A stretch of 64,000 nt of DNA from Diplonema papillatum (taxonomy: Eukaryota > Euglenozoa > Diplonemea > Diplonemida > Diplonemidae). A program made the translations under genes and the position numbers. The notes beneath the pieces are model-generated. The model was not told the DNA's origin, ran no database searches, and worked only from the letters and a program-made list of their open reading frames with translations. Where the stretch lies: contig JAPJBO010000069.1 of NCBI GenBank assembly GCA_030068145.1, positions 398,007 to 462,006 of the forward strand, in the 5' to 3' direction. The stretch's first letter is position 1; each line of letters begins with the position of its first letter. Below, piece by piece: positions 2,967 through 25,130 of the stretch.

Positions 2967-3352
2967 CTAGAAATGACCGGTGCCCTCGAATATGGAGACG
3001 AGCCGGTTCGCTCTTGAGTGCAGCCAATGCATCAGAATCGCGAGAAGACCTAGCCCCGCTAACTCCATAAGTACTCGATCTTGATGGCAGGCTTGACGAC
3101 GACGATAAAGGAACGCCAGCTGAAAAGTGAAAATGGATGACGTAGATGGCCACTCGTCGTGCCATGTGCCGCGCAAAAATCGACGAGTGAAAAGGGGAAC
3201 GGGGCCCACGATGCGGCGCGCTCGTGGACCGGGTGGGGGTGAGTTAAATGAAGGTGGAACTGTGCAATCTGTATCGACCCCGCGTGCGCGACGCCGAGCA
3301 AGACCCGGCTGCACACCGAAGGCAGAGCGGTCCGAAGCGATGGAGACCGACT
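2967..3352 (-). pseudogene. Decayed fragments of the F5/8C gene in its own 5' flank
   Basis: Read on the minus strand, about 3240-3312 encodes RGVDTDCTVPPS followed by PPPGPRARR. This closely matches the gene's internal RGVNTDCTVPPS (near 2500-2560). Just upstream, 3318-3352 matches one unit of the 60-bp coding repeat (GCAGAGCGGTCCGAAGCG). The pieces keep the gene's orientation but not its order or frame. They look like partial local duplications, not exons. Confidence 0.6.
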
Positions 3353-3637
3353 TGCATCGGAGAACTTACCACGACGGCCGTGGCTTTGCAGAAGCATGGC
3401 TCCTGTGTGACAGGCTTACCAACACATTTGTGCTCGCATTAAACGGGGAGGTTTCGCTGCTCGCCTACCAGATCCGTACCGGCCGGATCCACATGGCACG
3501 GTAAATCGCAAGAAAGAAGAAAAAAGGAAAGCTTGCACGAGTGAGTGGTGACAACCAGAGGATGCGTGTAATTGCATACGGGTGCAGCTGCTTCCCGGGA
3601 AGTGGCGACCGTGCTTTGGAAAAAGCGCGGGGGGTAT

Positions 3638-3666
3638 CCCTGGGCGCCTGCTGCATCCGGTTCTAA
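3638..3666. repeat. Short copy of a segment of the F5/8C gene
   Basis: About 29 bp (core TGCTGCATCCGGTTCTAA) match 801-829 inside the F5/8C coding region with two or three differences. The match is too long to be chance in this context and is another small fragment of the same gene in its 5' flank. Confidence 0.5.
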
Positions 3667-3670
3667 GTAC

Positions 3671-4313
3671 TATTCGGTTTCGAGTCTACGAGCAAAGCTA
3701 GAGCTCTGAGAAATCGTGTGTAAATGTCATGTCGTACTGCGACCGTTCGGCACATTTAACGCGGGTGCCCGAAGGCAAGCTCTGCAGGAAGATAGGTTTC
3801 CTGTAAAGCAGAAGTAGCGTAATAGCTTGCCCGATCTTCATCGTCGGCTCTAGCCTCGCTTCATTGTCCAAGGAATGAAGCAAGAGAGATGACAGCGAAA
3901 GTCCCACAAGGGACAAGACTTGTAGGCAAGCGTCCATAGCGGCGTTGCAGTGACGAAAGACGGCAACATGGGTGTCTGTACGTTTCGGACTTTGTGTCGA
4001 TCTGTGGTACTGGGGCCGTCAGAAAAGAACCGGCATCAAAAACTGTGCTTTTTGAACGGTGGCAATACGGGTCGTTCACGAATGTTACTGCGTGCTCAAA
4101 GCAGACGGTTGCCGTGAAAGATAACCCACGGAAAAACGGGGGCGCTGCAAGCAGATTAAGGCAGGCCACATCTCTTACGGCTGCGTACCCGCACTTAGCA
4201 ACTGACCTACGGTTTCCCACTCATTGGCAAGCCGCACACGGCAGAATGCAACAGCCCCCTCCTCTCATATTCAGGACGCGCAGCGAAGAACTACCGCAGC
4301 AGCCCACCCTGAA
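3671..4313. other. Spacer, nothing recognised
   Basis: Intermediate GC with no open frame of convincing composition, no tandem repeat and no match to other parts of the window that I could see. It probably holds the 5' end of the F5/8C transcript and the 3' end of the ankyrin transcript. Confidence 0.4.
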
Positions 4314-4849
4314 AACTGCCTCAGGGTTTTGAGTCGATCCAAGGCACAGGGCAACGCGTCGTCGGGGAAAGAGCAGCCGGCGGGGCCGGGTACAGGCGGC
4401 TGGGCCCGGGCGCTTTTAGCAGCTCCAAGCGGGCGACGTCGCACGGCCGCGCACCCCACTTGTCGACAATCTGCGAATTCGCCCCATGGCGTAGTGTATC
4501 CATCGAGTTGACATCCGCATCGAGTGGCACCAGCAGCCGCACACCACGTGCGATACCGTGACACCCTTCGCGTCTGCCTCGCGTATGGACCTTCAAGGCT
4601 TTGAGTCGATCCAAGGCACAGGGCAACGAGTCGTCGGGGAAAGAGCGGGCCGGGTACAGACGGCTGGGATCGGGCGCTTCTAGCAGATCGAAGCAGGCGA
4701 CGTCGCACGGCCGCCGTGCACCCCACTTGTCGACAACCTGCGAATTCGCCCCATGGCGTAGTGTATTCATCGAGTTGACATCCGCATCGAGTGACACCAG
4801 CCACGTGCGATACCGTGACACCCTTCGTATCTGACTCGCGTATGGACCT
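4314..4849 (-). pseudogene. Two tandem decayed copies of the 3' end of the ankyrin gene
   Basis: Copy A (about 4595-4849) and copy B (about 4314-4594) follow the stop codon of the ankyrin gene and repeat its last 350 bp or so with internal deletions. Each keeps recognisable stretches such as VDKWGARPCDVA, FDLLEAP and the terminal PWIDSKP or its frameshifted remnant. The same blocks are deleted in both copies (within the second and third ankyrin repeats), so one probably derives from the other. Spacing between matching points is about 249 and 279 bp. Frames are broken and the copies are unlikely to be translated. Confidence 0.85.
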
Positions 4850-7800
4850 TCAAGGTTTTGAGTCGATCCAAGGCACAGGGCAACGAGTCGTCGGGGAAAG
4901 AGCAGCCGGCGGGGCCGGGTACAGACGGCTGGGCTCGGGCGCTTCTAGCAGATCGAAGCAGGCGACGTCGCACGGCCGCGCGCCCCACTTGTCGACAACC
5001 TGCGGGTTCGCCCCGCCGTTGACCAGCTCCTCGACGCAAGGCCGGTGCCCGCGGCGCATGGCGTAGTGCAACGGTGACCTGCCCTGCGCATCCATCGCGT
5101 TGACATCCGCGCCGAGCGATACCAGCAGCCGCACGCACTCCACTCTCCCCACGCGGCACGCTACGTGCAACACCGTGACACCCTTCGCGTCGGACTCGCG
5201 TATGGACCCGCCCATTTCCAGCAGCGTCCCGACGCACTCGCTGTGCCCGTTCACGACTGCATGCACGATCGCACACTGCCCCAGCAGCGCGGCGTCGAGC
5301 CCGAGCCACGCCATAGCGGCGAGGCTCTTGTCGTCGCCCTCCCTCGCCGCCTTCACCAGCGACGCCATCCACGCCGGGCGCGCGCCGCACGGCGCGCGTC
5401 CGGAGTCGCGGCCGAAAAAAAAGGCCTTCGCGGGCGCCGCTCGGCCCGGCTCGCCCGCGCAGCTCTCCACGAACCCGCAGACCCGGCGGTCGCGGAAGGG
5501 GTCCGCCGCCCACAAAAACCGGGCCCGCTCGCCGCTGGACAGCAGCACGAGCCCGCGGGCCACGAGGAAGGCTTGCAGCGTGCTGTCGGCGTAAAAGGGC
5601 GGCTGGGCAGCAGCGGCGGCGTCGGGCTTGTGGAACGGCGCGGTAGGTAGGACCCGGAGGCACGTCAGCGGGAGGAGGATGTGCGCTCTGCGCGCAGCTT
5701 CGGTCTCTTCGGCGTGGCGGCGCAGCCAGTATTCTTCGGAGAAGAGGAAGGAGCTGTGCGGGCACTGCCGGAAGTGCGAGAACAGCCGGGTGGCCTCGTC
5801 GATGGTGTTGCACGCGGCTCGCGCCGTGGCGTTCCGGATGGATTGTTCCTCGGCCGCGAGGGAGGAAAGTTGCGACGCATGCACACAGCGGGACATCGAC
5901 CAATCGAGCAACGCTCCCGCCGCATCGCGCCGGGTCGCAGCCGCAAACCCAGCGAGCGCGAACCGCGTGCAGAGGGCCAGCACGTCCTCGAGGCCCCACC
6001 CTTCCGGGAACAACCCGATCGAGGCGTGCAGCGTCACAAACCCACGCAGCGCCTCTTCACACTCGGAGAACGACCCGTGCCGTCCCCTCTCAGACCCACC
6101 GCCCGCCCGTCCGGACCCCTCCTGCACCGCGGGCCTGCAGTGGAACGGGTCCAACGCAGGCTCGCGGGAACACGCTATCAACTGACACCCGTCGCCTGCT
6201 AGGTCCACGGCGGTGCAGGTCCGAAGCAACTCCGGCGGGACGATGAGCACGCAGTTCCCGCGTGCCGGGAGTCCCCAGAACTCCAGCAAGTGAAGGGGAT
6301 GTGCCGTCGGCTGGCTCGCCGCTTTCCGGGAGAGCGCGTGCAACGGTTTGTCGACTTGGGTCAAGCCGAACAAAGGGCAGTGCGGGTACAGGTCCGAGAG
6401 GACCACGAGGCGGCAGAGCTGGAAGGCTTGGAACGTCTCGATCGCTGTTTTCTGCGCGGTCGCCGCGAACAGGAGCTCGACGAAGGGCGACTCGGTCCGT
6501 GCTGCCTTCATGCGACGGGTTTCCAGAGCCGGCAGGTGCAGCATCACGACGAGCGGGCCCTCTTCCCCCGCGGCATCCGCGCCGGGAGCGCCCTGCGCCA
6601 TGCCGGACAAAACGCGATCCGCGCGCAGCCGAAGGGCTTCGACTCTCCGTTCTCTTTCATTCCGCTCCTCGTCGACGCCCTCCAGCCCCCCAGTCTCCGC
6701 CTCCGCTCGGCTCCGGGTCGTCCCGTGCAAAAACAGGTCCACCCGCTTCGCCTCGCAACCGCTGAACAGGCACGCGAACAACGCAGGATTCCCCTCGGTC
6801 AGCCGCCGCCGGCGGATCCCGCCCCTCCCCGACAGTTCAGCCTCCATCAGAGCGGACCTCGCTTCGAGTTCCCCGCCGAGCAACTCGAAACGACCCTCGA
6901 CGCGGAGCCGGCGGTGCGCAGCCGCGGCCGCCCGCTCGTCGGAGGAGTCGGCCTCGCTTTCGTCCGTATCGTCGTCGTGCCGTTCTGTGTCCGATTCGGT
7001 GCTCGCGACATCCTCCGTTTGTTCGGCTGCCCCCGTGGCCGACACGGCCGCGTGGAGCAGCTGCGCGGCGCGTTCTCGCTCCCGCGCTTGGCGGAGGCGG
7101 ATCACCGAGCGGGCGGTGCCCTGCATCAGCTGCAGGCTGCGCAGCGCGAAATCGCCGCGGCAGAGGTGCCCCGAGAGGGTCGGCACGCACGAAGCGTCGA
7201 GCACCGCGCGCCTCGTTTGCTGGAGGTCCACTGCACGGTGGTCGGCCCGGTTCCCTCGGAGATGCTTCGCCGCGTACGCGGAGAGCCGGAGCAGGGTGTG
7301 CCGGGAGAGGTGCAGGCAGTCGATGAGGAGAGCGCTCGACACGCTGCGTGCCGCCGAGTCGAGCGTCGCCGCCGCATGCCGCGCCACGCTTTGGTAGTCG
7401 GCGGCGTGCGCGGTTTCGACGTTGACGACGTGCGGCGCGCGCTCGTTCAGGCGCAGGTCCTCGCACAGCTGGAGGACGACCACCGAGCTCCGGGCGCACA
7501 CCACCAGCGGCGGGCCGCCGCTTTGCAGCGCCCCCCGCACACACGACGAAAGCGATTCTTCAACCACACGGCCCCTCGGACAGTGCACTCTTGGTTGCGC
7601 GCTGCCGTCTTCGCTCGTCTCCCGGACCAGCCTACGCAGGCTCTTGGATTTTTCGAGCCGGTCGGTTGTCAGGCAGGTTGGCGGCGCAGCCGTGGTCTCG
7701 GAAACAAACGCGGTGCTCTCACTGTAAAAGGGCAGGCAAGGGGCCACTGCCAAGTGGAGGTGTTCACGCAGGGCGTCTTCGGCCGGGTTCCGGTGATCGG

Positions 7801-9889
7801 TGCCGCCCTTCTGCTGCTGCGTTTCGCCGTCGCTTTCGGTCTCTTCGCTCGTGAGCTCGTCGCCGACATCGTCGCCATCGTCCTCCAGCACTGAAGACTC
7901 CGCGAAGCTGTCTTGCGAGACTACCTCTGCTTCCTCTCTCGCCGGCCTCAGCACGAACACCTTGCGGGCACCCATCAACTGCCCTGCGGCACTCGCGCTG
8001 CTCCCTGCGGCTGCAACTTCAAAGTCACCGCATAGCGGGTACAGCACGCCTTCGCCCTGCGCCGGGTCTGCGGTCGCGAACGCGATGTCTTTGCAGCAGA
8101 TGAACTCGGGCGGAAACACGTACAGCGCACCGCTCGCCTGCATAAACTGCCTGACGAGCGAAAGGTTGGACGTGACGGCAGCGGGGACTTGCCAGTGGAG
8201 ACGCGGCGGCGTGGCGGCAGCGGCGGCGGCGGCGGCGCGGGGCGGGCACGCCGGGCTCGCTGAAAGGGTGTCGAAGCGGTAGGCGGGGAGGAGGGAGAAC
8301 GGCAGGATTTCGACGGTGTTCCACAGGGCGTGGAGCAGGCCGGACAGCTTCCCGACGGCGGTTCGCGCGGGGCCGTCGAGCGACACGGGGTACCCGCGAA
8401 GCGACGCGAGTGCGCGCGAGAGGGCCGCGTGGGTCTCGGGACTGCTCGAGTAGAGGAACAGCGCCGAGATCCCTTCGACGGCGGCCTTCGCGGGCGCCGC
8501 GAGGAACGCCGTGGCCGACCGGTGGGCGAGGAACTGCCGGCGGCACTCGTCGCGCAGCCGGGCCTCCGCCCACTCCAGCGCGCGGCGCGCCGCGGCTTCG
8601 CCCGGGGAGTCGCCCTCCTGCAGGCGGGGGGCAACCACTGCGTGGTAGTACGGGGTTTTCGCGCTGCCCGCGTCGGCGGCGAGCTTGCCCTTGATGAACT
8701 GCGACCGAACCTCCGCCCGCCCAGCTGCTTCCGCCGCGACGCAGGCGAGCCAGCTGTCGTCCAGCTGCTCGGTCAGGTCGTAGACCTTGAAGGATATGCC
8801 GAGAGGGTCGCGCCAGAAGCCGAAGAACGCGCCGGCAGTCAGCCGCTCTTCGAACCTCGTGAGGACGTCGTGCAAGCCCGCGTGCAGGCAACACCGCCGG
8901 ACGCGTCCTTTCGCGTGCCCGTTGTCCCGGTGGGTCGCGCATTTTACGGCACCGCTCGGCACGATTCGGAGGGCCTGCAGCCTCTGCAGCCACGTCCGGA
9001 TCTCGGTCAACGCACAGGGCGAGTACGTCTTCGCACGCGCGCTGCGGTGCGCTTCGACGATCCGCGCGGCGCACTCTGCCTTCCAACCGTTCGCGCCGCC
9101 CGCGTACTGCGCCCGCGTGCTGCCGAAGACGCGGAGGGCGAAGTACTGGTCCGGGGGCAGGTGTCCCCAGCGCGGCGGGGTCTGCCCGTCCGGGCTCACG
9201 CCTTCACCCGCGGGGCAGAAGGCGTCGGACAAGTCGCTGGAGGAAGGCTGCCGGTGATCGCCGGGGATGCTCGACGACGACGAGAATGGGGCCCGGAGAA
9301 GCTCCGTGATGGGCTGGCCCCCGCCGCTGCGCGGCTGGGGGGGAGGGTCCTTCGGCAGCCTGCCGCTGGCGTTCAGGCCCTGCACCGTGGCCAGCAACTC
9401 CCTGCGGAGCCTGCGCCACGAGCCCGGGATGTCGTGGCTCGGGCCCTCGGCCGCCGCGGCGGGCGCGGGGGTGAGCGTATTCACCTCGACGGGTTGCGCA
9501 CACTCGTTCGCCTCCTGAGCGGTGCGACCCCCCCCGGGCTGCTGGGGAGAAGTGTGCAGGATGGACCTCCTGCCCGCAGTCGCCTCGGCCCGTTGCCCCG
9601 CGTGGGGCGGTTCCGGGGTGTGTGCGGGTGATAGGTTCGGGACGACCTCGCGGAGAAGCCAGCGGCCGCCCCGCACCTTCGTGTAGTGCAGGATGCTCCG
9701 GGTGACGTGCGGCGGCGGCAGGTGCACGAGGGCGGGCTTCTTCCGCTCGCCGGCCTTGCCGGCCGCCACCTGCGGCTTGCTGCTGCGCAGGGCTTCCGCC
9801 TTCCACGCAGCGAGCAGGTCGTAAAACTTCGGCCACTCCCCTTGGCCGGCCGCCTCCGCGAGTGCCGCTTCGTAGTTCTCGTCGAGCAT
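4850..9889 (-). CDS. 1,679-residue protein with C-terminal ankyrin repeats
   Basis: One uninterrupted frame of 1,680 codons. The ATG at 9889 (MLDENYEAALAEA) is preferred because the in-frame extension to 9979 runs into a mobile-element copy ending at 9914. The C-terminal part (about 1503-1635) contains about three ankyrin repeats, visible as VLHVACRVGRVECVRLLVSL, GADVNAMDAQGRSPLHYAMR and a following GHRPCVEELVNGGANPQ; these normally bind other proteins. The remaining 1,500 residues are not recognised. They include two acidic stretches (about 656-690 and 953-983) and hydrophobic alpha/beta segments such as GPPLVVCARSSVVVLQLCED, but I see no Walker A motif, RING or kinase signature. A scaffold or adaptor role is inferred from the ankyrin tail only. 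Two decayed copies of the 3' end follow the stop codon. Confidence 0.85.
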   Translation of the reverse strand: MLDENYEAALAEAAGQGEWPKFYDLLAAWKAEALRSSKPQVAAGKAGERKKPALVHLPPPHVTRSILHYTKVRGGRWLLREVVPNLSPAHTPEPPHAGQRAEATAGRRSILHTSPQQPGGGRTAQEANECAQPVEVNTLTPAPAAAAEGPSHDIPGSWRRLRRELLATVQGLNASGRLPKDPPPQPRSGGGQPITELLRAPFSSSSSIPGDHRQPSSSDLSDAFCPAGEGVSPDGQTPPRWGHLPPDQYFALRVFGSTRAQYAGGANGWKAECAARIVEAHRSARAKTYSPCALTEIRTWLQRLQALRIVPSGAVKCATHRDNGHAKGRVRRCCLHAGLHDVLTRFEERLTAGAFFGFWRDPLGISFKVYDLTEQLDDSWLACVAAEAAGRAEVRSQFIKGKLAADAGSAKTPYYHAVVAPRLQEGDSPGEAAARRALEWAEARLRDECRRQFLAHRSATAFLAAPAKAAVEGISALFLYSSSPETHAALSRALASLRGYPVSLDGPARTAVGKLSGLLHALWNTVEILPFSLLPAYRFDTLSASPACPPRAAAAAAAATPPRLHWQVPAAVTSNLSLVRQFMQASGALYVFPPEFICCKDIAFATADPAQGEGVLYPLCGDFEVAAAGSSASAAGQLMGARKVFVLRPAREEAEVVSQDSFAESSVLEDDGDDVGDELTSEETESDGETQQQKGGTDHRNPAEDALREHLHLAVAPCLPFYSESTAFVSETTAAPPTCLTTDRLEKSKSLRRLVRETSEDGSAQPRVHCPRGRVVEESLSSCVRGALQSGGPPLVVCARSSVVVLQLCEDLRLNERAPHVVNVETAHAADYQSVARHAAATLDSAARSVSSALLIDCLHLSRHTLLRLSAYAAKHLRGNRADHRAVDLQQTRRAVLDASCVPTLSGHLCRGDFALRSLQLMQGTARSVIRLRQARERERAAQLLHAAVSATGAAEQTEDVASTESDTERHDDDTDESEADSSDERAAAAAHRRLRVEGRFELLGGELEARSALMEAELSGRGGIRRRRLTEGNPALFACLFSGCEAKRVDLFLHGTTRSRAEAETGGLEGVDEERNERERRVEALRLRADRVLSGMAQGAPGADAAGEEGPLVVMLHLPALETRRMKAARTESPFVELLFAATAQKTAIETFQAFQLCRLVVLSDLYPHCPLFGLTQVDKPLHALSRKAASQPTAHPLHLLEFWGLPARGNCVLIVPPELLRTCTAVDLAGDGCQLIACSREPALDPFHCRPAVQEGSGRAGGGSERGRHGSFSECEEALRGFVTLHASIGLFPEGWGLEDVLALCTRFALAGFAAATRRDAAGALLDWSMSRCVHASQLSSLAAEEQSIRNATARAACNTIDEATRLFSHFRQCPHSSFLFSEEYWLRRHAEETEAARRAHILLPLTCLRVLPTAPFHKPDAAAAAQPPFYADSTLQAFLVARGLVLLSSGERARFLWAADPFRDRRVCGFVESCAGEPGRAAPAKAFFFGRDSGRAPCGARPAWMASLVKAAREGDDKSLAAMAWLGLDAALLGQCAIVHAVVNGHSECVGTLLEMGGSIRESDAKGVTVLHVACRVGRVECVRLLVSLGADVNAMDAQGRSPLHYAMRRGHRPCVEELVNGGANPQVVDKWGARPCDVACFDLLEAPEPSRLYPAPPAALSPTTRCPVPWIDSKP

Positions 9890-9913
9890 CGCCGCAGCAT
9901 CCCCCTCCCTTCT

Positions 9914-10123
9914 TTGTTTTGTATAAGCACCTGCTTTGTAGGAAATACTTGAGGAGGCGCACCAGCTGCAAAAGATCAAAGGAGGTAAATGTGCTGTAGC
10001 CCCACCCGAAACACAGGTGAATCTGGTCTTGGTTCAACAAAAAAGACCCACTTTGTAGTTGTATTGTTTCTCCCCCTTTAGCCTCCTTCGAAGTAAGCAC
10101 AAGGCAGCCCCTCGAGTATTTTT
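9914..10123 (-). mobile_element. Foldback (MITE-like) element, copy 1 of 6
   Basis: One end reads AAATACTCGAGGGGCTGCC and the other, inverted, AAATACTTGAGG, forming imperfect terminal inverted repeats around about 200 bp with no coding capacity. On its own strand the element ends in GGTGCTTATACAAAA followed by an A-rich run. Internal blocks (GGAGGCTAAAGGGGG, CACTTTGTAGTTGTATTG in inverse) are shared with the copies near 18660, 30286, 30464, 37072 and 56366. This copy abuts the presumed start of the ankyrin gene and may supply its 5' leader. Confidence 0.75.
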
Positions 10124-10449
10124 CACGGCCGGGGCGCGCGGGCGCGCTTTGCGGTGCCCCCAACTCGCGCTGGGGGGAGGTGAAGAGACGGGCGGGTTTC
10201 TCTTGGATCGCGGTTGTCAAACGCAATGCGTTTTAGACCGCTCGCAGCTTTTTTAATGTAATTCTAGTGTTATTTGAGGGTCCGGTGTCTAATGAGAGCC
10301 GCCGGTTGACTATAGAGGCTGGGAGTCGGGTTTCTTGGAAGGGGTGTAGACATAACAGCACACTTTAACCTTGGCTAGCCAGGTTTGTGCGTGTGATCAC
10401 GGTGAAGCTGAGAAGAGCGAGGGAGGTCGACCGGAGTATTGGAGTGGCA

Positions 10450-10730
10450 TCCGCAGGGCTCTCGCAAGGCAAGCTGCAATGCCGGTTGACTGGGGTCCTT
10501 CTGATCTGAAGGCAAGCGCGAAGCGACCAGCCCGGACGGACCAACAAGACGCAAGACCAGGCGACCAAGAGAAGGAGGGGGACGCGACCCAGAGAACCGG
10601 GCTAAGTAGCTTGGAACTATGTGTGATGGACCTTTCTTCGGAGAGGCTCACGCACTAAAAGAGCGACTTATACGCAGGGCTCTCGCAAGGCAAGCTGCAA
10701 TGCCGGTTGACTGGCGTCCTTCTGATTCAA
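10450..10730. repeat. 55-bp direct repeats flanking an insert that carries the UUCG hairpin element
   Basis: A segment of about 55 bp (GCAGGGCTCTCGCAAGGCAA and onward to CTTCTGAT) occurs at 10450-10504 and again at 10675-10730 almost unchanged. The 170 bp between them contain the conserved UUCG hairpin element. The flanking repeats could be an unusually long target-site duplication or a small tandem duplication. Confidence 0.7.
10612..10676 (+). ncRNA. Candidate small structured RNA element with UUCG hairpin, copy 1 of 3
   Basis: The core GATGGACCTTTCTTCGGAGA forms, with the next bases, a six-base-pair stem (CCUUUC/GAGAGG) closed by a UUCG tetraloop. An outer helix can pair GUGUG upstream with the downstream CGCAC. 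The segment continues into CGACTTATACGCA, also shared with the copies at 40268 and 55694. It could be a small RNA gene, a structured RNA relic or the end of a mobile element. Its transcription is not shown by the sequence. Confidence 0.4.
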
Positions 10731-12104
10731 GTTCGGGAATCGTCTAGTCTCGTGAGGTTCACACTTCAAAGGCATGGATTGATTTTTGGAAAAACAGGTC
10801 GTTCGAATGAAACCCGATCTCCAAAAACACGCTCCCTACGGCGTTGCAGCCTTCGCAAGGCATCCGTGGAGCAACCACTCAAGATTGCAAGAACTGAGAT
10901 CTTCTTGATTTCCAACCAGTGTGGGGGGGTCTTTTACGGTCGCTAAACGCGTGCCTATGCGTCCAGACTTGCCTGCACCCCGCTTTTCAGCAGCAATATA
11001 CTAAGTCAATGCGGGAGTGAAAAAGTGCGGGAGTGCAACTCCCGCATTGAGGGAGTGAGGCCGACCGCACAAACAACCGCAAAACCACTCCCGCAATCCG
11101 GAGTGGGAGTCCGGGGTGTGTTTCGTGTGGGATACCGCCCATTTCCTCCTGTGGGGTTTGGTTATTGCTGCATTGGGTCGGCATCATGAAACTGGTTACC
11201 GTCTCGAGTGTTCCCTGCAGGTGCTTGAGCAAAAGAAGAAGGTGAACGCGATAGGCTGACGCCGGATGAGAGACTAACGACGGTCCGTCGCCGTAGACTG
11301 TGTGACAGTGACACAGATCTTTTTCCTTTTTCGGGCAAGCGGCGGTTCAAATTCGACCCGAGGCGCATTCCTTTGCCCACCGGCACGGTTTTTGCAAGCA
11401 AAAGAAAACACGAACGCAGTGATTCCTTTTCACGGCATCTGCGGCCGTGGAGAATGGCAACTACAGTTCTGCACGCGGCGCGGGGGCTTCTGCCGGAACG
11501 TATGTGCAAGCTAGGGTGGGCGGTCCTCTTGTTTCCGGTCGCTTTTCATCCCGATACTCTCACAGTTCCGCTCTGCTGCAGCGCAGCTCAATATCCCAGG
11601 GCCAGGTGATCGGCAATGATGCTGACACCAGAGGAAGCTCGCTGACACCCTTCCTCTCTCGGCTGTGTTTCACACGACAAACCCGCAGAGCTGTTTTGTT
11701 TGTGCGCACGTGTGTAACCCTTGGTTGGTAGTTACAGCACGATATGCTGTCAAGCGTCTATTCGACAAGGGGTTCGTTAGTCTTGTTACCATAAGAAAAC
11801 AGACCGGGCAAGTTCAGAGGGAGCTGTGAACCCAACAGCCCGGAACACGACCGGGGGAAGGAAGAAGACACGCGAAGGTCAGCAGTAGACGTCGGCGACA
11901 AGCAAATGCGAAGGGCTGCTGCGCACGGACGGCACGGGGGTTGTAACTTGCCCGTCGTACTAGACACTAGACACCCTTGCATATATGCGGCTCTTATTTG
12001 CCGATTTGACTGCTGACTTTGCCTCGGGCCAATTCTGACAGACTTCAAGCCACGAGCTAGAGTCTCCTCAACGAATTGTAGCAGCATGGGTGCAGTCAGG
12101 TGGT
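10731..12104. other. Spacer with a dispersed repeat and a small palindromic cluster
   Basis: 10731-10895 is related to 20965-21060 and 30775-30875 (shared blocks around CCAAAAACACGCT, TAGCCTTCAC-type and GGGGCAACC-type stretches). 11005-11115 holds repeated, oppositely oriented GCGGGAGTG/CACTCCCGC motifs that can fold into hairpins. The rest, to 12104, shows no convincing gene. Confidence 0.45.
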
Positions 12105-12290
12105 TTCTCCCTTCCTTCTCTGTGGCCTAAGCAGACCACCCCTTGGTTCCGCATTCTCTCAAGCTTTGGCTGACCAAGCCGCTGCTTGTTTCGATGCACT
12201 TCCCGGCAGCTGCGGATGCGTGTCGCTCGTGGACGCACAACTGCGCGCGCATACAAGCGTCACGCAATTAGCAGATGAAGCGGATCCGTG
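12105..12290 (+). repeat. Dispersed repeat, related in inverse orientation to 51530-51745
   Basis: The blocks GGTTCCGCAT, TGGCTGACCAAGCCGCTG and AAGCGTCACGCAATTAGCAG occur in the same order here and on the minus strand at 51745-51530. The other copy carries extra sequence between the blocks. Both look like decayed copies of one element, possibly retroelement-derived, because the 51 kb copy lies beside a zinc-knuckle-like reading frame. Confidence 0.55.
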
Positions 12291-12341: not shown

Positions 12342-13470
12342 TCACTTCCAAAACCCGCAGGCTCGGCACTTCTTGTTCCCCTTAAAGTTGAAGATCTTGC
12401 ACTCGCTACAGTACCATCCGCCGTCGCGAGAATACGGATCGAACTCGTTCACACCGAGGCGTGTCTGTGGGTACGTTTGTCATTGCCTTTTGCCATTTTC
12501 AGCCACATGCTCTGGCCCGTATCAGTGCCCGTCCATCACTTGTGGAAGTGGCGGGAGAATTAGTGTAATGAGCAGGCCTGGCCTACTCACTCTGGTAGTA
12601 GCGTTCTTGCCTTATAGCATCGATGTCTTACTCACAGCATTGTTGCCCAGTGCATTGCATTCGTAGTTGGATGTTTCACCCATATCATCGGGAAATGTAG
12701 TTCGATCTTCCGGTATCCTTGTACTCAAAACTTCTTACACCGCCACTAAACCCATTTACCTGGGTTCCGTGTGGGCTACAGCATTGGAGCTTGCACTCTC
12801 GTTGTCATCGTGAGTACCATACTATTGAGACTTCGCCCCCTACAAAAAAAGAAAATAAGACCTTTGAGCACGAAACGCAGGTTTCGGTGTGGTTGACGGT
12901 CTTGCACGGCTGGCAGATCCAAGCGTTGCGCGTCATGACGCCGGGGAGGGCGCGCGTGCGGGGCGCGCTGCAGTTGCGGCAGTGCGTGAATTCGGGGTTC
13001 ATCTTGTTCGGGAAGAGGCACCCCGAGCAGATCCAGCGGGGCATGTTCGGGTCTTCGGTCCCTGGCCGGTGGTGCCCGCAGGAGTCGCACGCGGGCATCG
13101 TCTTCGGCGTGAAGCTGTGGCACTTGACGCACTCCCACAGGCTCCTCGGGCCCTTCGTGCGCAGCCACTTCCGCATCGAATCCGTCAGATACGGCGCGTT
13201 TTCCTGCAGCTCGCGCTGGATCCTCTGCGCGTGGGCGGCGTCCGTCGCGAGGAAGCCGAGCCCCGCCGCAGACGACCCCCGCAGGCCCTTCAACTTCTTC
13301 ACCGAGCTCAGCTCGTGCCCCGGCTCCCGCCAGCCGATGCCAGGGTACGGGCTGTCGACTTCCGGGTCGCTGCTTTCACTCGGCTGCTTCGGCATGTCCG
13401 AGATCCTCCTCCGTTGCCCCGCCCGCAGGGCCCATTGCAGCGCGTCCGGGCTCGCAACCGACCGCAGCAT
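12342..13470 (-). CDS. Protein with four RanBP2-type zinc fingers (two exons)
   Basis: Exon 1 is 13470-12862 and exon 2 is 12464-12342. The intron has donor AAG|GTCTTA and acceptor CCCACAG|ACA, both in phase 0. The spliced product is 243 residues, or 218 if the ATG at 13395 is used. That later start is plausible because the first 25 codons belong to a repeated upstream segment. Four zinc-finger motifs of the W-x-C-x2-4-C...C-x2-C type are visible: WECVKCHSFTPKTMPACDSC, WICSGCLFPNK with its CRNC, WICQPCKTVNHTETCVSC, and, encoded by the short last exon, WYCSECKIFNFKGNKKCRAC. Such fingers bind single-stranded RNA, ubiquitin or Ran in other proteins; which applies here is unknown. The reading of exon 2 rests on a fourth complete finger and a matching splice phase. 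Confidence 0.8.
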
Positions 13471-14260
13471 CGTGTGCCTGCTGCTTCCTTCGGTGGCAAA
13501 CGGCAGGCCGCTCTCTCTTTGCGTCTGTCCTGTCTAGGGTGTGCACGTTGCGTCCACCTAGTCCCCCCGCCCACCACCACCCCTTCCTGGTTTTAAGTCG
13601 TTTGGGCAGGTGCTGGTCCCCCAGTCACTTTTGTCAGACAGTGTTCTGCAGGGCTTTCCCTTTCTCCGGAGGTGCAGCTCTGTTTTGCCGCCGGTTCTGC
13701 TTTTCGATGAGTTGTTGGCATGTCCGACACCCTTCTCCGTTGCCCTTCCCGCAGGGCTCGTTGCATAGCGTCCTGACTCGTAACCGACCGCAGCATCGTG
13801 TGCCTGCTGCTTCCTTCGGTGGCAAACGGCAGGCCGCTCTCTCTTTGCGTCTGTCCTGTCTAGGGTGCACGTTGCGTCCACCTAGTCCCCCCGCCCACCA
13901 CCACCCCTTCCTGGTTTTAAGTCGTTTGGGCAGGTGTTGGTCCCCCAGTCACTTTTGTCAGACAGTGTTCTGCAGGGCTTTCCCTTTCTCCGGAGGTGCA
14001 GCTCTGGGTCTGCTTTTCTATGGGTTGTTGGCATGTCCGACACCCTTCTCCTTTGCCCTGCCCGCAAGGCCCGTTGCAGCGTCCGGGCTCGCTACCGACC
14101 GCAGCATCGCTCTCTTCCGTCTATCGTGTCTAGGGTGTGCACGTTGCGTCCACCTTCTACTCCCTTCCCCACCACCCCTTTCTGGTTGTAGGTCGTTTAG
14201 GCGGGAGTTCGTCCCCCAGTCACCTTTTGCCAGGCAGCGTTCTCTGCAGGTTTTCGATGG
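13471..14260. repeat. Large direct repeats of the zinc-finger gene's 5' end
   Basis: The gene's start region (13421-13470) and its upstream flank recur as partial copies beginning near 13749 and 14061, about 328 and 311 bp apart. Each contains GACCGCAGCATCG (the inverse of the gene's first ATG), CTGTCCTGTCTAGGGTG, a TTCCTGGTTTTAAGTCGTTT-type block and TCTCCGGAGGTGCAGCTCTG. The third copy is the most decayed. Confidence 0.85.
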
Positions 14261-15420
14261 GTTGCTTCGACATGTCCTGCTAGACAGCGTTCTGCAGGGT
14301 TTTCACTATCTCCGGAGGTGCTGCTCCCTTTTGCCGCCGGGTCTGCTTTTCGCTGGGTTGCTTCCGCATGTCCTGCTAGACAGCGTTATGCAGGGTTTTC
14401 ACTATCTCCGGAGGTGCTGCTCCCTTTTGCCGCCGGGTCTGCTTTTCGCTGGGTTGCTTCGGCATGTCCTGCTAGACAGCGTTCTGCAGGGTCTTCACTA
14501 CTATCTCCGGAGGTGCTGCTCCCTTTTGCCGCCGGGTCTGCTTTTCGCTGGGTTGCTTCCGCATGTCCTGCTAGACAGCGTTCTGCAGGGTTTTCACTAC
14601 TATCTCCGGAGGTGCTGCTCCCTTTTGCCGCCGGGTCTGCTTTTCCCTGGGTTGCTTCGGCATGTCCTGCTAGACAGCGTTCTGCAGGGTCTTCACTACT
14701 ATCTCCGGAGGTGCTGCTCCCTTTTGCCGCCGGGTCTGCTTTTCCCTGGGTTGCTTCGGCATGTCCTGCTAGACGGCGTTCTGCAGGGGTTTCACTATCT
14801 CCGGAGATGCTGGTCTGCTTTTCGCTGGGTTGCTTCCGCATGTCCTGCTAGACAGCGTTCTGCAGGGTTTTCACTATCTCCGGAGGTGCTGCTCCCTTTT
14901 GCCGCCGGGTCTGCTTTTCGCTGGGTTGCTTCGGCATGTCCTGCTAGACAGCGTTATGCAGGGTTTTCACTATCTCCGGAGGTGCTGCTCCCTTTTGCCG
15001 CCGGGTCTGCTTTTCGCTGGGTTGCTTCGGCATGTCCTGCTAGACAGCGTTCTGCAGGGTCTTCACTACTATCTCCGGAGGTGCTGCTCCCTTTTGCCGC
15101 CGGGTCTGCTTTTCGCTGGGTTGCTTCCGCATGTCCTGCTAGACAGCGTTCTGCAGGGTTTTCACTACTATCTCCGGAGGTGCTGCTCCCTTTTGCCGCC
15201 GGGTCTGCTTTTCCCTGGGTTGCTTCGGCATGTCCTGCTAGACAGCGTTCTGCAGGGTCTTCACTACTATCTCCGGAGGTGCTGCTCCCTTTTGCCGCCG
15301 GGTCTGCTTTTCGCTGGGTTGCTTCGGCATGTCCTGCTAGACGGCGTTCTGCAGGGGTTTCACTATCTCCGGAGATGCTGCTCCCGCCGGGTCTGCTTTT
15401 CGCTGGGTTGCTTCGGCATG
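14261..15420. repeat. Two-level minisatellite of 96/99-bp units (two hexamers)
   Basis: Twelve units begin with TAGACAGCG or TAGACGGCG at 14281, 14377, 14473, 14572, 14671, 14770, 14849, 14945, 15041, 15140, 15239 and 15338. Unit lengths are 96, 96, 99, 99, 99, 79, then 96, 96, 99, 99, 99 and about 83. Diagnostic variants (TTATGCAG in unit 2, the extra ACT in units 3-5, GACGG and AGATGCTG in unit 6) recur in the same order, so a six-unit block of 568 bp was duplicated. The unit matches a collapsed version of 13635-13728 and contains GCTTCGGCATGTCC, the inverse of the gene's second ATG region (MPKQPSE). Confidence 0.95.
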
Positions 15421-15500
15421 TCCGAGACCGTTCTCCTTTCCCAGGCCCATCGCAGCCCGGGCTCGCCACCGACCGCCAGCCGCAGCAGTGCAGCGCCTCG
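15411..15500. repeat. Last copy of the zinc-finger gene's 5' segment, at the far edge of the minisatellite
   Basis: GCTTCGGCATGTCCGAGA and the following GGGCTCGCCACCGACCG match 13390-13470 at the start of the zinc-finger gene. The minisatellite is therefore bracketed by gene-derived sequence on both sides. Confidence 0.75.
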
Positions 15501-15849
15501 TGCGGAACTTTCTGTCCCTCCCCCCTCTCGGCTCCCGCCGACGGCGAAAAAAGGAAACGGTTGCGTGATTCTCGACCCGGCCGGCCCAGGGCAGGGCGCC
15601 GGGGTCTGAGCAAGCTGAGAGCAGTGGCTAGACGATGACCGTGATACGGCAAAGGGCGGGGCAAAGCCTACACCGGACGTACAATCTAACGTCTAACGAG
15701 TCCTGGACTGAGTCGGTCTACCCTGCTGGTAGGCTGCAGATAGGCTGTGATTGCCAGTGATACCTTATGGTTAGAATGCAGACGCTTGCACTCATTCAAA
15801 TCGTCGTCTTCGCACTGTGATAGACTGCAGCAGTGAGTGGCGGCCGCCC

Positions 15850-16205
15850 GGCAGCGAAGCCAGGATGAAAGCCACCTGCCGCAAGAGCTGGGCAAGGCTA
15901 CGCTATTTGTGCTGGAATTGCCGCGGGTGCTGAGGCTTTGTCCACCAACTGTGTTCGCTGGCAGGTTTAGATAATATTAGCATCCCTTGTTTCTAACGTA
16001 CTCAGTACGTATCGAGGCTATTTCTCTGCGCTGCCTCAGAAGTGTTGCTATTGGGCAATTTGCGTCCCTGCTGCCATCTTTAGATGTTGTCCGTTTCACA
16101 CAAGGCTTCAGACGTATCAGTGTCCGTTAGACCGCCAGCTCGTGAGGGAGGACTCTGCCGACTCAGGACACATGCGGGATGCCAGGCTCGGGTCCAGATT
16201 GAAGG
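15850..16205 (-). pseudogene. Broken copy of the 3' end of the helical-repeat gene
   Basis: 15850-15900 (GCCACCTGCCGCAAGAGCTG) matches 16395-16445 of the gene's last exon. 16090-16205 carries CACAAGGCTTCAGAC and GCTCGGGTCCAGATTG, matching 16445-16505. The two halves keep gene order and orientation but are separated by about 185 bp of unrelated DNA. This is a decayed partial duplicate just downstream of the gene. Confidence 0.6.
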
Positions 16206-16256
16206 TGTCGTGAGCCGCGGCTGTTCTTCTACTTCCCGCAATATGATTCATCGCCG

Positions 16257-19200
16257 TCACACCAGGGAGCCCCTGCTACACGTCAACAGCAGAGCGAGCG
16301 CTTTTTCCCACGCCGCCTGCAGCTCCCGCCGCACGCTGTTCGACGGCTGGACCGCGATTCCATCCAAGATGCCATCCGGAAGCTCTTCGCCGGAAGCAAG
16401 CGACGCCAGGACAAAAGGCACCTGCCGCAAGAGCCGGGCGAGATCCCCGCACAAGGCTTCGGACACGCCGTCGTCGGCTACGGCGGCCCGGGTCCAGTCT
16501 GCGAGGAAGGCGAGGAGAAGGGAGCGCTGCTCACCAGGAACGCAGGACGGGCAGTGCTCGACTGCTAGGGCGATCACACCGACGCAGAGCAGCTGCCGGG
16601 AGGGGGGAGTCCCCGGGTTGTAGAGGACGCGGAAGGCGGCGGGGACGAGCGCAGGGACCGCGAGGCAGGTCGTGTAGACCCGCAGGTCCGGCAGGAGCTC
16701 GAAGCAGTCGGCCAGCACGCCCTCAGCCCCGCCCAGCTGGGCCAGGCACTGGACCGTCGACCGCAGCCTGCTCGCCACCGGCGCTGCGACGCCACGCAAC
16801 GGCACGCAGCCGACCAGGTTCTGGATGATCCCGACGCACTGTGACCGCGTTATGCGGTTCGCAGGACCCGACCCGACGACACTCGCCTGCCACCCGGCCG
16901 CTGCCGTTGCGAAGTAGTCGACGGCGGCGAGGAACGCCGCGAGGTGCGGCTCCGTCGTGAACACGGCGGACCGGACGCTGAACAGAATCGCGACCAAATA
17001 CCCGCTGGTGGTCACCTCCGCGTCGCTGGTCGGTGCCGACAGCAGGTACTTGAGCTCGAGGCCCGGTTTGACGGCGGCCGCTTCGTTCTCGGAAGGCCAC
17101 AGCGCGGACAGAATCTTGACGTGATTCACCTCCGGGCGCGTGTCGAGGTCGCGAATATCCACCGGGAACCCGTGCAGCCTCGGCTCCTCGGCGAGGAAGT
17201 ACTGCGGGAAGACGGCGCGGAGCTGCCGCTCTAACCGAGCAACGGGCTCCCTTGTAGCCGGATCGTCCATCAGCTGCGCGCTTTCACGGAGCAGCAGCTT
17301 CAGCGGAGCCCTGCAGAGCTCTTCGTACATGTTGCCCTTCTCATCCGGCCCTGTGGCCTGGTCGAGGAGCGCGTTGAAGACCGACGACGCCAGGGCCGCC
17401 GCGACGTAGACTGTGCCCCGATGGGCGCCGGTTGCGACCGCCTTCTCGATCCTGCTGCGCACCTCGCACGCGGGCAGGGGCAGCCTTCCCCGCAGCCTCT
17501 CGTTCAACGCGTCCCACGCCCCCGCCGCCGCCTTGATCAGCCGCAGGTCCCCCCGCTGGAGTGCCTGCCGGTCGAGCCACTCGAAAAGAAGCGCCGGGGG
17601 CCGGTCATAGTCACCGGCACAAACCTATGGGTTGTTTTTCGTAATAACAATTAATTGTAAATTCGAAAGAGAGCGCTGGCAGCGTGTTGGGAGGAGACTA
17701 TCATGTTCACCCACTAGCAGGCTAACTTCCCCGGCACGTACAAACCAACATCGGGCCTGTTCTTTTTTTTGGTACCAGCAAGCTTGCGGCTGGTAGCCCT
17801 TCAATGTCAGAGGTGCAGTAGGGGGTTGTTTAGGGGGTGCGTGTTTGGTCGACGCTGTCGTTTCGGTGGCTCGGGTGGGTCCTGGCTGAACACCGCGGCT
17901 TGTATCACATGAGCCGGCTCTGCTTTCCAGCGCTCCTTTCCGCCCGGCGCCGTGGCCTGGTCAGTCGAGCAGCGCGTTGAAGACCAACGACGCCAGGGCC
18001 GCCGCGACGTAGACTGTACTGCTGGGCCCCGGTTGCGACCGCCTTTTCTTGCCTTCTCGATCCTGCTGCGCACCTCGCACGCGGGCAGGAGCAGCCTTCC
18101 CGCAGCCTCTCGTCCAACGCGTCCCACGCCCCCGCCGCCGCTTTGATCAGCCGCAGGTCCCCCCGCTGGAGTGCCTGCCGGTCGAGCCACTCGAAAAGAA
18201 GCGCCGGGGGCCGGTCATAGTCGCCGGCACAAACCTATGTTGCGTTTTGTTTTGTTTTAGGAAAGTCTTCTCTGGCGAACCCTGCAGGAAGAAAAGCCAA
18301 GACTCCGCAAGTTCGGGTGGTGGATCCCGTGCCTGTTGCAAACGAACGCGAGCGTACACAATGGAACGCCAACAAAAATGGTGCATAAAAATACCTGGTG
18401 GTTTTCCAAAGTGCTCTTCACGGCCATACGCAAGATGTGCTCCACCATCGGCAGGGATACATCAATCTCGCTCAGCTCGACTGAGGTCAAGAACTCGAGT
18501 ACCTGTAATTTGCCTTGTTCTTCGTTGTGTACACAAGGTAGAAACCTCTCTCTGGGGACTCTGGGGAGGTTTCCTGCGTACTAGCACGCTTTTGCTGTCT
18601 TCGTTTTCTCCTTCATTGTTTCGGAAAATGCTCCCGTCAGTACAAATGTGCCATCAGTACAATACTCGAGGGACTGCCGGTGCTCATTTCGACGGAGGCT
18701 GGAGGGGGAGAAAACAATACAACTACAAAGGGGGTCGTCTTCCTGTTGAACGCTTACGCCCGCCACTAAAACCCAGAGGTACCTGTGTTTCGTGTGGGCT
18801 ACAGCACATTCACACCCTTTGATCTTGGAATATTGTTGCGATAGTGGGGAGTCGCCGGCATGCCGATGAGCTCCATACTATGCATTTGATCTTGCGCAAC
18901 TGGCAGTCTCCTCAAGTATTTCCTACGAAGCAGGTGCTTATACAAACCCTGCTCTAACAGCATGCACAAAAGGAAAACCCCCTCCCCCCCCGCCTCACAA
19001 GTCAAACGGAGACTTCAAAAACCCGGCCGCTTAAAGGGGGGGTCGAATAATAACACTTGTGTTATTATTCGATGTATCGAATACTAAAAGAGTTCCGGGT
19101 AGCCGAACAGTAGCAGGATCAAGTAGTGGTAGTGTTTTTAGACAACCAGACGCGTGTCAAATAACTGTTATTATTCGACCCCCCCCCCCTTTACTACGAG

Positions 19201-22022: not shown

Positions 22023-22599
22023 GGTGCCGGGGCAACACTGCGGGTCAGCTACATGCCCGTGTCCCTTCCGCCACCCTGACCTTGTTTAGACTTTAGGTTC
22101 GCTTGAAACTCCGGGGGGTTAGGATCTCCGTGTGACCGTTGTTAAATAGGTTCTCTTAGAGCAAGAATTTTCTTTGGTGTACACTTTCGTTATGGGGTAT
22201 GGCTAGCCGTGTCCGGGACTGTTTGTGCGCATGTTTGTTCGGGGAGTCTGCCTTGCAGGGGCGGCTTCGCGACCAGAAGAGGGCCCTTTTCTTGCTGATA
22301 CGCAGCACGTCCAGCTAGCGGGCATCGCGTTCCCTTCCCGCCAGACTATTTGTAGCTCGAAGCCAATCCCCAGCCAACGAGCCATCGACAATGGAGGCTG
22401 ACAGGGAGATGCCGAGGGCTTCTCCACACCCCAACGGGCGCAGCTACCCTTTGTGGCGGGACCTGGTTGGTTAGAGCGATTTGCCAGGTTGAGACCCCGA
22501 CCCTTAAATAGGCGGGCGTGTCGTTGTAGGGGGGCGTCTTCTGGCATCGGCGACTTCCTGCTTACCCGCTACTTCTTGAGGGGACTGTGCATGACTTAT

Positions 22600-22984
22600 G
22601 CGAACGATCGATCGCGCGCCGCTGCGGCGGCCTGCTGCGGAGGACCCTTCCGTCCCACGCACCCCCCCAGCGCGGCGGCGCCGACGCACTCAACTGCCAA
22701 CGCGGCTATTCCGGGCCAACACCCCCGCCCGACGAACGCCGCCCAATGCGCAGCCCCCGGCTGCGTCCATCCGACGCGCGAACCGACGCAAATGCGAAGA
22801 AACGAGCGAAGGGTCATCCAACGATGGCTCCGGCCGGGAGGCCACAACGACACCCACTCGTAGGCCGCCCCCGCGGCGGCGCAACAGGCGCGTTCCATCT
22901 GCTGTGACGTAGACACGGAGTGTGCATAGTGCGTTGCTCAGGGTAGTCGAAGGCCTGACAATCACACTAATGCAACAAATTTAC
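22600..22984 (+). mobile_element. 3' fragment of a retroelement-like repeat (pair with 51837-52225)
   Basis: About 380 bp are nearly identical to the minus strand of 51837-52225. Both contain the end of an open frame rich in Arg and Pro (ending PPPRRRNRRVPSAVT) and then a shared 3' tail that stops at the same base (GCAACAAATTTAC). A common 3' end with different 5' extents is typical of 5'-truncated non-LTR retrotransposon copies. No reverse-transcriptase sequence is present. Confidence 0.6.
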
Positions 22985-23600
22985 GACGTATGCGCGCGGA
23001 ACAGCACGCCAATGTTGCTCCTAAATGTCCTGAGGTTGCCCGCGCACTACTGTGACACTTTGAACGAGTTTGAGAACCCTTCGGCTTCCTACTTTGAAGA
23101 GGGTGGGTACCTTTTCTTGCGTCCCCCCGGTATCCAGCGGCCACCCGTAGCGTGCAGCCGGCCGCTCACCTTTCCGTCAACGAACTCCCGGATTAGAACG
23201 GTATTGTCCGACCCGCTGGTTCAACTTTGCTTCATTTTCATTTTCAGTACAATGTGTCCGGGTGATGATTGTCCACTGGGTCGTCGGACTTTCCCGGGGA
23301 ACCCGCAAGGCTCCGCAGCGGAACCGGGCGCAAAAGGCACCCGAGGTGTGGGTCTTGCCACAGTCGACGCAGCACTCCACGTCCTCGTCGGCGGCCCAAC
23401 CGTTGGGGGCGAGGACGACCTCCATGGGCAGCCTTCAGGTCAATCGCCATCTGCACGAAAAATATATTTTTCGAGACTGGGGGTCCTCTGAACATGTAAT
23501 GTGAATAGCCTCTATTCGAGCCAACCCGGCTTTTGTCTACACTAAAAAGGTGTATTGTTTTTGGACTAGATAATAGTGCGGAGCTAACTTTTCTTTTGGC
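22985..23600. other. Spacer, nothing recognised
   Basis: Open frames here are short and of random composition. A possible 3' splice-like CATTTTCATTTTCAG near 23240 is not backed by a coding signal. Confidence 0.35.
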
Positions 23601-23604
23601 ATAG

Positions 23605-23675
23605 GGGTGGAAGAGTGAGCGGGCGTCGGCCTTTAGGCCGGTAGGCCCGGGTTCGAACCCCGCCCATCACACTTT
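23605..23675 (+). other. tRNA-like sequence (pol III A/B-box pair), probably a pseudo-tRNA or SINE head
   Basis: It contains GTGGAAGAGTGAGCGGGC (A-box-like), a GGCC-rich anticodon-like arm with TTT in the loop, and a perfect T-loop block GGGTTCGAACCCC, followed by GCCCATCACA. The 3' acceptor half has no complementary 5' half, so a functional tRNA is unlikely. A tRNA-derived repeat head is a better reading. Confidence 0.35.
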
Positions 23676-23894
23676 TCCGATCGAAGATTGTTTTCGAGGT
23701 TAGTTGCGTTTCGGGGTCTAATGTGCCCGATATTAGCGATTTTTTGCGGAGTTTCTCAGTATCTCGCGGTATTTGGGTCACCCCGGAAACGGAGTCGGGG
23801 GGGGTCCGGGGGGGTCTCCCCCCCCCGGGTACTGGCACCGAACTTGCCATCACAGGCCAAACTTGCGCTACCACACGCCGCCGAACTCAGCATC

Positions 23895-24330
23895 TCCAAA
23901 ACCCAAACTTTGCTTCGCCCGAACTTTGCTTCGCCCGAACTTTGCTTCGCCCGAAATATGCAGCGCCCGAACTTTGCTTCGCCAGAATCGCCCGAACTTT
24001 GCTTCGCCCGAACTTAGCATCGGCCCGAACTTTGCTTCACCAGAACTTAGCATCGCCCGAACTTTGCTTTGCTTTGCTTCGCCCGAACTTAGCATCGCCC
24101 GAACTTAGCATCACTCGAACTTAGCGTCGTCCGAACTGTGCTTCACCAGAATCGCCCGAACGTTGCCTCGCCCGAACTTAGCATCGGCCCGAACTTTGCT
24201 TCACCAGAACTTAGCATCGCCCGAACTTTGCTTTGCTTCGCCCGAACTTAGCATCGCCCGAACTTAGCATCACTCGAACTTAGCGTCGTCCGGACTTAGC
24301 TTCGCCCGAACTTTACTGTTTCCCGAATTT
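23895..24330. repeat. Minisatellite of about 14-20 bp units (CCCGAACTTTGCTTCG)
   Basis: About 25 imperfect units alternate between CCCGAACTTTGCTTCG and CCCGAACTTAGCATCG types, with occasional CACCAGAA insertions. A block of roughly 110 bp (around 24020-24110) recurs at 24190-24285, showing secondary duplication. Confidence 0.9.
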
Positions 24331-24805
24331 TAACTGCTGCCTCCAGTCTCGCCGCGCCGGTCTTTAGCCGAGCGCACGTACTGTGTTTGTGCGATTTAAC
24401 CTACATGCGTTTTGGTTAAACCGCTGTCAACGTTCTTTTTAGCTGTAACAAATACCGTCTCCAGGGAAGCAGAAAATTGGTTGTCGCAGCAAAAAAGGAA
24501 AGGAAGGCGTCGAAGTGGACATCTAGCTATATCGGAGCTCTAAAAGCGGGTTAGGAACGAACGTGGCAAAGCTCCTCTTTTCATTGGCTAATTGTGCACC
24601 TTGGCTCGTTGTCACTCGACGCGTCGGTTCGCAAGTGAGCGTGGTGTCGCGGGGACTCTTGGGAGATCACTGAAACAACACCTCTATCGCTGAGTTCCGT
24701 GCGCGCGATGCTATTTTCCTGCAGTCGCGCGCTTAGCGCTTCTGTTTTTGTTCCCACGGCACTAGACACACGGCAGGGTTCCGTAGTTGCGTACCCGCGC
24801 GCATT
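24331..24805. other. Spacer, nothing recognised
   Basis: No open frame with convincing composition and no repeat shared with other parts of the window was seen. Confidence 0.35.
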
Positions 24806-25130
24806 GACACGTATGTCCAAAAAGATAAGCCGTGCATCCCGTTGCGTGGAAAGCTCTCGTCGGCAGAGGCCATCAGCACGATGAACTGCTGCGGCGGCGC
24901 ATGGCTTTCTCGGGTATGAAAACCTCTCAGCTGCACGCGCTTCCTCAGCTGATCCAGATGTAAGCGCAGACCTTCATCAAAAAGATGCCCACCTTCAAGG
25001 AATGTGGAGACACCTGTCATGAGCAGCGCGATGAGCTGCTGCTGCGGTGGCATGAATGGCCTGATCTTGTTCTCGGCTACATGTGCTCCCGCGGCTTCGT
25101 GCACTCGGGCATGAGAGCCTAAGCCATTTT
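24806..25130 (-). pseudogene. Decayed partial copies of the last exon of APC2
   Basis: Segments at about 24815-24935, 24970-25080 and 25083-25125 each repeat part of the APC2 terminal exon in the same orientation. On the plus strand the shared blocks include GTCATGAGCAGCG, GAGCTGCTGCTGCG, CACCTTCAAGGAA and GGCCTGATCTTGTTCTCG. On the minus strand they read as ENKIRPFMPPQQQLIALLMT and shorter remnants. Frames are broken. They lie directly downstream of the APC2 stop. Confidence 0.85.

Follow-up and report, generated by a model that had tools for sequence, protein, structure and literature searches.

Genes and echoes in the window

The 64-kb stretch of contig JAPJBO010000069.1 analysed here (the window, which is the scope of every result below) is eukaryotic, as indicated by the ankyrin, APC2 and RRM genes that Pfam identified in it, and several of its genes are accompanied by decayed partial copies of their own segments, which we refer to as echoes. 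An original prediction had placed such echoes at five of six genes. Our analysis bore this out firmly for an ankyrin-repeat gene, a zinc-finger-like gene, a helical-repeat gene and APC2, and left the fifth case, a gene labelled F5/8C, doubtful, as it consists of a 29-bp match and a chimeric piece. Taken together, the echoes are mostly real and go well beyond chance.

The source of the ankyrin echoes is the 3′ part of the gene (4850-5208, the last ~360 bp), and the matches end at the stop codon:

4850-9889, minus strand: ankyrin-repeat gene, single exon (open reading frame; Pfam Ank_2, E 1.3e-33; BLAST)
4593-4849, minus strand: echo 1, contiguous with the gene and carrying internal deletions; 90% identical to the gene over 4850-5014 (alignment)
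4321-4592, minus strand: echo 2, with two internal deletions in common with echo 1; 93% identical over 165 bp (alignment)
4140-4216, minus strand: possible third echo, very decayed (BLAST 73%; nhmmer E 0.0012 or 8e-5, depending on the model)

Echoes 1 and 2 are frame-broken, lie in the same orientation as the gene and consist of pieces that are 85-93% identical to it. Because they share deletions that are absent from the gene, they point to a sequence of duplication, deletion and re-duplication, and thus to at least two rounds. Towards the 3′ side, echo 1 is closer to the gene, and towards the 5′ side the echoes are more alike than either is to the gene, a pattern that repeated exchange or re-duplication would give.

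At the zinc-finger-like gene, the copies form an array that lies next to a related minisatellite:

12808-13470, minus strand: zinc-finger-like coding exon (open reading frame; Vps36-NZF-N only at E 0.083, below the cut-off)
13391-14250, minus strand: ~324-bp head-to-tail array (Tandem Repeats Finder [TRF], 2.3 copies, the third unit partial; alignment)
14251-15423, minus strand: minisatellite of 12 units of 99 bp, related to the ~324-bp units (BLAST, TRF)
15387-15476, minus strand: outer partial copy of the 5′ end of the gene (BLAST, alignment)

The start codon lies at 13470 on the minus strand, and the ~324-bp units contain this start codon, the N-terminal codons and upstream flank. Within the 99-bp minisatellite, a stretch of ~600 bp repeats at 97% with an offset of 568. 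Opposite the gene and the minisatellite, an 836-amino-acid frame runs from stop to stop on the plus strand (13128-15638), perhaps because the lengths of most units are divisible by three.

The helical-repeat gene, for which no Pfam family was found and whose label is unconfirmed, has one echo in its upstream intron and a short one downstream:

16260-17624, minus strand: helical-repeat gene exon (open reading frame; acceptor CATAG|GTTTG at 17624, by eye)
17944-18239, minus strand: intronic echo of 17345-17629, in the upstream intron (BLAST)
15853-15896, minus strand: 44-bp downstream echo of 16399-16442, 86% identical, at a 546-bp offset

The intronic echo copies the initial 280 bp of the exon that starts at 17624, out of frame, at 90% identity and with 17 gap columns; beyond the exon, only 5 nt of intron (CATAG) are common at its 5′ border. 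It retains the AG acceptor, and the frame that follows from this acceptor has no stops but leaves the frame of the gene. No duplicate of the 314 bases that separate copy and exon was detected, so the intronic echo is a spaced copy and not a plain tandem duplication.

APC2 was identified by the Pfam families TPR_ANAPC2, Cullin and ANAPC2 and by matches to APC2 chains in PDB; its last exon alone retrieved no APC2 chain in the PDB sequence search. The echoes derive from this exon:

25200-25461, minus strand: last coding exon of APC2, ANAPC2 C-terminal domain (Pfam PF08672, E 3.9e-7; the 25461 edge is approximate)
24847-25120, minus strand: three decayed last-exon pieces, downstream of the stop codon (25200-25202)
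25570-26102, no strand assigned: array of four 124-bp units in the last intron (BLAST, TRF)

The three pieces (24967-25075, 71%; 25084-25120, 82%; 24847-24944, E 2.5e-4) have matches that end at the stop codon, and BLAST found no match between the intronic 124-bp array and the exons. Just upstream of APC2, inverted arms of ~145 bp (28656-28798 and 29292-29424, 85%) enclose ~490 bp and resemble a non-autonomous DNA transposon of the miniature inverted-repeat type.

For the gene labelled F5/8C, neither Pfam nor PDB sequence searches returned a match to an F5/8C domain, leaving the label unsupported, and its copies are weak and mosaic:

3638-3666, minus strand: 29-bp direct copy of gene segment 800-828 (BLAST)
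3250-3359, no strand assigned: chimeric piece upstream of the gene, direct 2510-2559 joined to inverted 1898-1969
1603-1953, minus strand: tandem repeat of six 57-bp units inside the coding sequence (BLAST, TRF)

The claim that copies share the orientation of their gene consequently stood for the ankyrin, zinc-finger-like, helical-repeat and APC2 genes and failed here, where the larger and best echo piece is inverted.

The RRM gene lies outside the interval covered by the original prediction:

59981-61537, minus strand: RRM gene (Pfam RRM_1; exon start uncertain)
61540-61810, minus strand: array of 3.5 units of 77 bp, directly upstream of the RRM gene exon

This gene appears PTB-like. The 77-bp array stops one base before a possible AG acceptor of the exon, whose start is uncertain. 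A tally in which all six genes are hit was rejected, as it requires both counting the 29-bp F5/8C match and extending the RRM exon into its array. All genes examined (28-28565 and 59981-61537) are encoded by the minus strand; for the plus strand, the analysis extended to a list of open frames. GT-AG introns were recognized by eye in APC2 and the helical-repeat gene.

Excess of direct repeats at short range

We compared the window with itself by BLAST (E up to 1e-3, length at least 30), with 30 block-wise dinucleotide shuffles as control, and obtained many more local pairs than in the shuffles, which gave at most one pair in any distance class. At up to 1 kb there were 58 direct and 15 inverted pairs (the inverted pairs in this class include self-palindromes), and at 1-3 kb 16 direct and 3 inverted ones; the two orientations were equally frequent at 3-10 kb (7 pairs each) and beyond 10 kb (20 each). 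Near pairs are thus strongly direct, and far pairs have no orientation bias. Such a short-range direct excess over shuffled sequence is one of the marks of local tandem duplications and minisatellites. When overlapping direct pairs within 3 kb were grouped, 21 clusters resulted, or 18 once three that are mostly shared with dispersed families were removed; these 18 cover 10.5% of the window, about one per 3-4 kb. The identities of the duplicates range from 71 to 97%. Together with the two or more rounds at the ankyrin gene, these identities, the direct excess and the orientation-neutral far pairs support the proposal that a local, repeated duplication process has operated here.

We also considered a hidden layer of weaker local duplication, which was rejected because after repeat masking only a small direct excess remained below 200 bp. 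In five bins to 5 kb, direct and inverted k-mer pairs in the masked window numbered 48/33, 19/33, 32/44, 68/62 and 166/156 at k=10, and 31/11, 9/17, 16/22, 25/21 and 59/66 at k=11. The residual k=11 excess below 200 bp came mostly from the gene-poor part (27/8), and the k-mer pairs showed no direct excess at 200-1000 bp in the masked window.

Echoes as probable local duplications at various stages of decay

We consider it highly probable that the echoes are ordinary local DNA duplications at various stages of decay, produced in several rounds by small tandem duplications and by locally templated break repair. By one route, small head-to-tail tandem duplications would have formed, and slippage or unequal exchange would have enlarged some of them again; to this route we assign the 3′ end of the ankyrin gene, the 5′ end of the zinc-finger gene together with its minisatellite, probably the 3′ end of APC2, and several arrays in introns and between genes. 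By the other, nearby DNA would have been captured at a distance while a break was imperfectly repaired (synthesis-dependent strand annealing or theta-type joining), as may apply to the helical intronic copy and the chimeric F5/8C piece. Head-to-tail contiguity was found for the ankyrin and zinc-finger arrays and the 57-, 77-, 99- and 124-bp arrays, and not for the helical copy or the F5/8C chimera. The working gene copy would then be kept by selection while the extra copy loses its frame and accumulates base changes. Locality, orientation, the excess over shuffles, more than a single round, broken frames and the absence of gene enrichment among clusters are observed; the repair pathways and this role of selection we infer. 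Gene-echo differences by codon position were 7, 4 and 18, summed over the helical gene and two ankyrin echoes that are not independent of each other; these counts come near the 1:1:2 expected of a constrained gene paired with a neutral echo. For APC2 the counts were 5, 6 and 6, which can be read only as flat, since the phase label is off.

The echoes are further instances of a known process, for which the vertebrate repair-mediated proximal duplications described by Pace et al. (2009; PMC2671141) are a close published precedent. That study lists 824 human duplications with a donor within 5 kb, a median length of 147 bp and a maximum of 619 bp, as well as 20 two-donor chimeras among 1,136 duplicons, and it names exons and splice sites among the copied DNA. 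The echoes resemble these duplications (donor <5 kb, 50-619 bp) in their exonic source and may also resemble them at their borders, where CATAG at the helical copy and the two-donor F5/8C chimera at 3250-3359 were observed. The helical intronic copy fits (599-bp offset, ~290 bp, donor <5 kb, non-contiguous), and the helical 3′ copy, at 44 bp, falls under the 50-bp size limit. In contrast to PMC2671141, where copies within 50 bp were excluded as tandem, much of the copied material in the window is contiguous and tandem, and several pieces do not reach 50 bp; the ankyrin and zinc-finger copies, being contiguous, lie outside the spacing that defines proximal duplications.

The head-to-tail arrangement is shared with tandem duplications arising from break repair. 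Two reports describe small tandem duplications at broken ends (PMC8355091) and, in helq-1 worms, tandem duplications spanning ~100 bp to 10 kb whose junctions show microhomology and templated insertions, events that are rare in wild type (PMC8654963). Those are fresh mutations with known genetics, whereas the copies in the window are old and decayed.

Minisatellites arise and grow by slippage or unequal exchange, and the 57-, 77-, 99- and 124-bp arrays, one of them with a longer repeated stretch, are in keeping with such birth and growth; unlike ordinary minisatellites, the zinc-finger array is related to the 5′ end of a gene. The duplication of an exon start together with its acceptor inside the helical gene intron also recalls intron-creating duplication, but the duplicate is spaced and no copy was detected at the donor site, so that intron creation is at most a possibility. 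The window offers well-resolved cases of flanks and introns in a GC-rich stretch filling with decayed copies of neighbouring exons, from which minisatellites and pseudo-exons, and perhaps new introns, can arise.

Placement relative to genes and exon edges

The original prediction had treated the copies as companions of genes and as a general feature of the genome. We compared the positions of duplicates with the exon map in gene-level, cluster-level and border tests, all of which use approximate exon edges that we drew ourselves; the exon set of the cluster test also includes an RNase H-like frame. At the cluster level, 6 of 18 clusters touched an exon against 5.79 expected from a rotated exon map (P 0.58), and one of the six qualifies solely through the 57-bp repeat within the F5/8C coding sequence. 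Five clusters straddled an exon/non-exon boundary compared with 2.73 expected by rotation (P 0.124). The gene-rich 28.6 kb and the remaining 35.4 kb held nine clusters each (0.31 vs 0.25 per kb). At the gene level, 4 of 6 genes were hit, with 65 of 318 rotations behind the corresponding P of about 0.2.

Several observations weigh against ordinary local duplication as the whole account. Five other gene-level definitions gave 5/6, 6/6 or 5/5 genes with an exon-crossing local duplicate, at P 0.005-0.053; these counts and the one at P about 0.2 differ in the RRM exon end (61540 or 61640) and in the required overlap (25 or 20 nt). Borders of 5 of the 18 clusters fell within 6 bp of an exon edge, where a post hoc rotation predicted 0.33-0.54. 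Junction microhomology was short, about 2-5 nt as judged by eye, and echo pieces of 44, 29 and ~50 bp are below or near the 50-bp floor of PMC2671141. The gene-level tests and the exon-edge borders together suggest that placement of the duplicates may be non-random.

These gene counts and exon-edge borders would fit a gene-linked process, in which gene ends act as hot spots through transcription-associated breaks, R-loops or replication-transcription conflicts, so that almost all genes accumulate duplicates of their ends. We regard such a process as unlikely: one definition gives only 4 of 6 genes, association is absent at the cluster level, the gene-poor part has a similar cluster density, and the tests were post hoc, confined to one window and based on exon edges of our own drawing. 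A tie of the duplicates to genes is accordingly not established, with gene-level P ranging from 0.005 to 0.2 by definition; the link depends on definitions and is suggestive at most.

The border coincidence also shrinks on closer inspection. Three edges in the count are doubtful, as the RRM edge was drawn with knowledge of the array, the zinc-finger hit is one alignment end of many, and the APC2 end may reflect decay of sequence that is not under constraint. With these removed, 2 of 16 clusters remained, one at the stop codon of the ankyrin gene and one at the acceptor of the helical gene; rotation gave P(≥2) of 0.014 for a distance of 6 bp and 0.034 for 10 bp. Within 3 bp, a single cluster of the 16 was left, with P(≥1) of 0.11. 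These tests, too, were post hoc. Selection that guards exons while adjacent sequence turns over may suffice for this coincidence. That exon edges themselves set the borders, with copying halted at splice acceptors and stop codons by transcript-templated repair or another exon-aware process that seeds arrays and pseudo-exons by most genes, seems to us very improbable. If the coincidence proved true genome-wide, it would indicate exon-aware copying; otherwise it is ordinary local duplication.

DNA or RNA as template, and remaining alternatives

The original prediction had inferred a DNA rather than an mRNA source from copies that include splice sites and introns or flanks. This content was clear only in the zinc-finger array; the helical copy carries only CATAG, and the ankyrin and APC2 copies stop at the stop codon. 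The proof is weaker than stated because, for four of the five genes (ankyrin, APC2, helical and F5/8C), all but 5 nt of the source lies in exons, though the contiguous arrays, the locality of the copies and the lack of poly-A at the borders inspected still favour DNA. An RNA origin would have transcript- or cDNA-templated repair return exonic sequence beside the gene, and transcripts reportedly can template break repair (PMC12065846, PMC11390984); the exonic sources, and a helical copy that starts 5 nt from the exon start, agree with it. We nevertheless judge this origin very improbable. For ankyrin and APC2 the match ceases at the stop codon, which is not an mRNA end, arrays of contiguous tandem copies are a usual outcome of DNA duplication, and the zinc-finger units include upstream flank, although this could be 5′ untranslated region. 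Neither poly-A nor a spliced exon-exon junction was seen in the alignments, nor poly-A at the copy borders inspected; every copy is confined to a single exon, which leaves no junction by which to judge splicing.

An assembly artefact, by mis-joining of repeats or alleles, has a comparably slim chance of explaining the echoes: the ~600-bp stretch repeated at 97% in the zinc-finger minisatellite is of the kind it could produce, but the ankyrin, helical and APC2 echoes differ from their sources by 7-29% with insertions and deletions, beyond ordinary allelic or collapse errors. Least probable of all is that the echoes function, for example as alternative exons or regulatory elements. In favour of it, the helical echo retains an AG acceptor followed by a stop-free frame, which shifts out of the gene's frame; against it stand frameshifts, internal deletions and codon-position differences that are consistent with a neutral copy.

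Other features of the window

No tRNA was found in the window by ARAGORN with the bacterial code, no Rfam family reached its gathering score there, and the dinoflagellate spliced-leader core had 0 matches at up to 2 mismatches. The RNase H-like open frame (58966-59670, minus strand) had a weak match to RNase H (E 1.2e-4, under the Pfam cut-off) and is perhaps a retroelement remnant. A dispersed repeat family of ~220 bp occurs in both orientations at 9910-10123, 18661-18946, 30311-30687, 37063-37287 and 56368-56588; it had 0 matches in viral contigs (two exact patterns) and in genome contigs (one exact pattern). Finally, a 388-bp inverted pair of 96% identity, 29 kb apart (22603-22987 and 51833-52220), represents a recent dispersed element.

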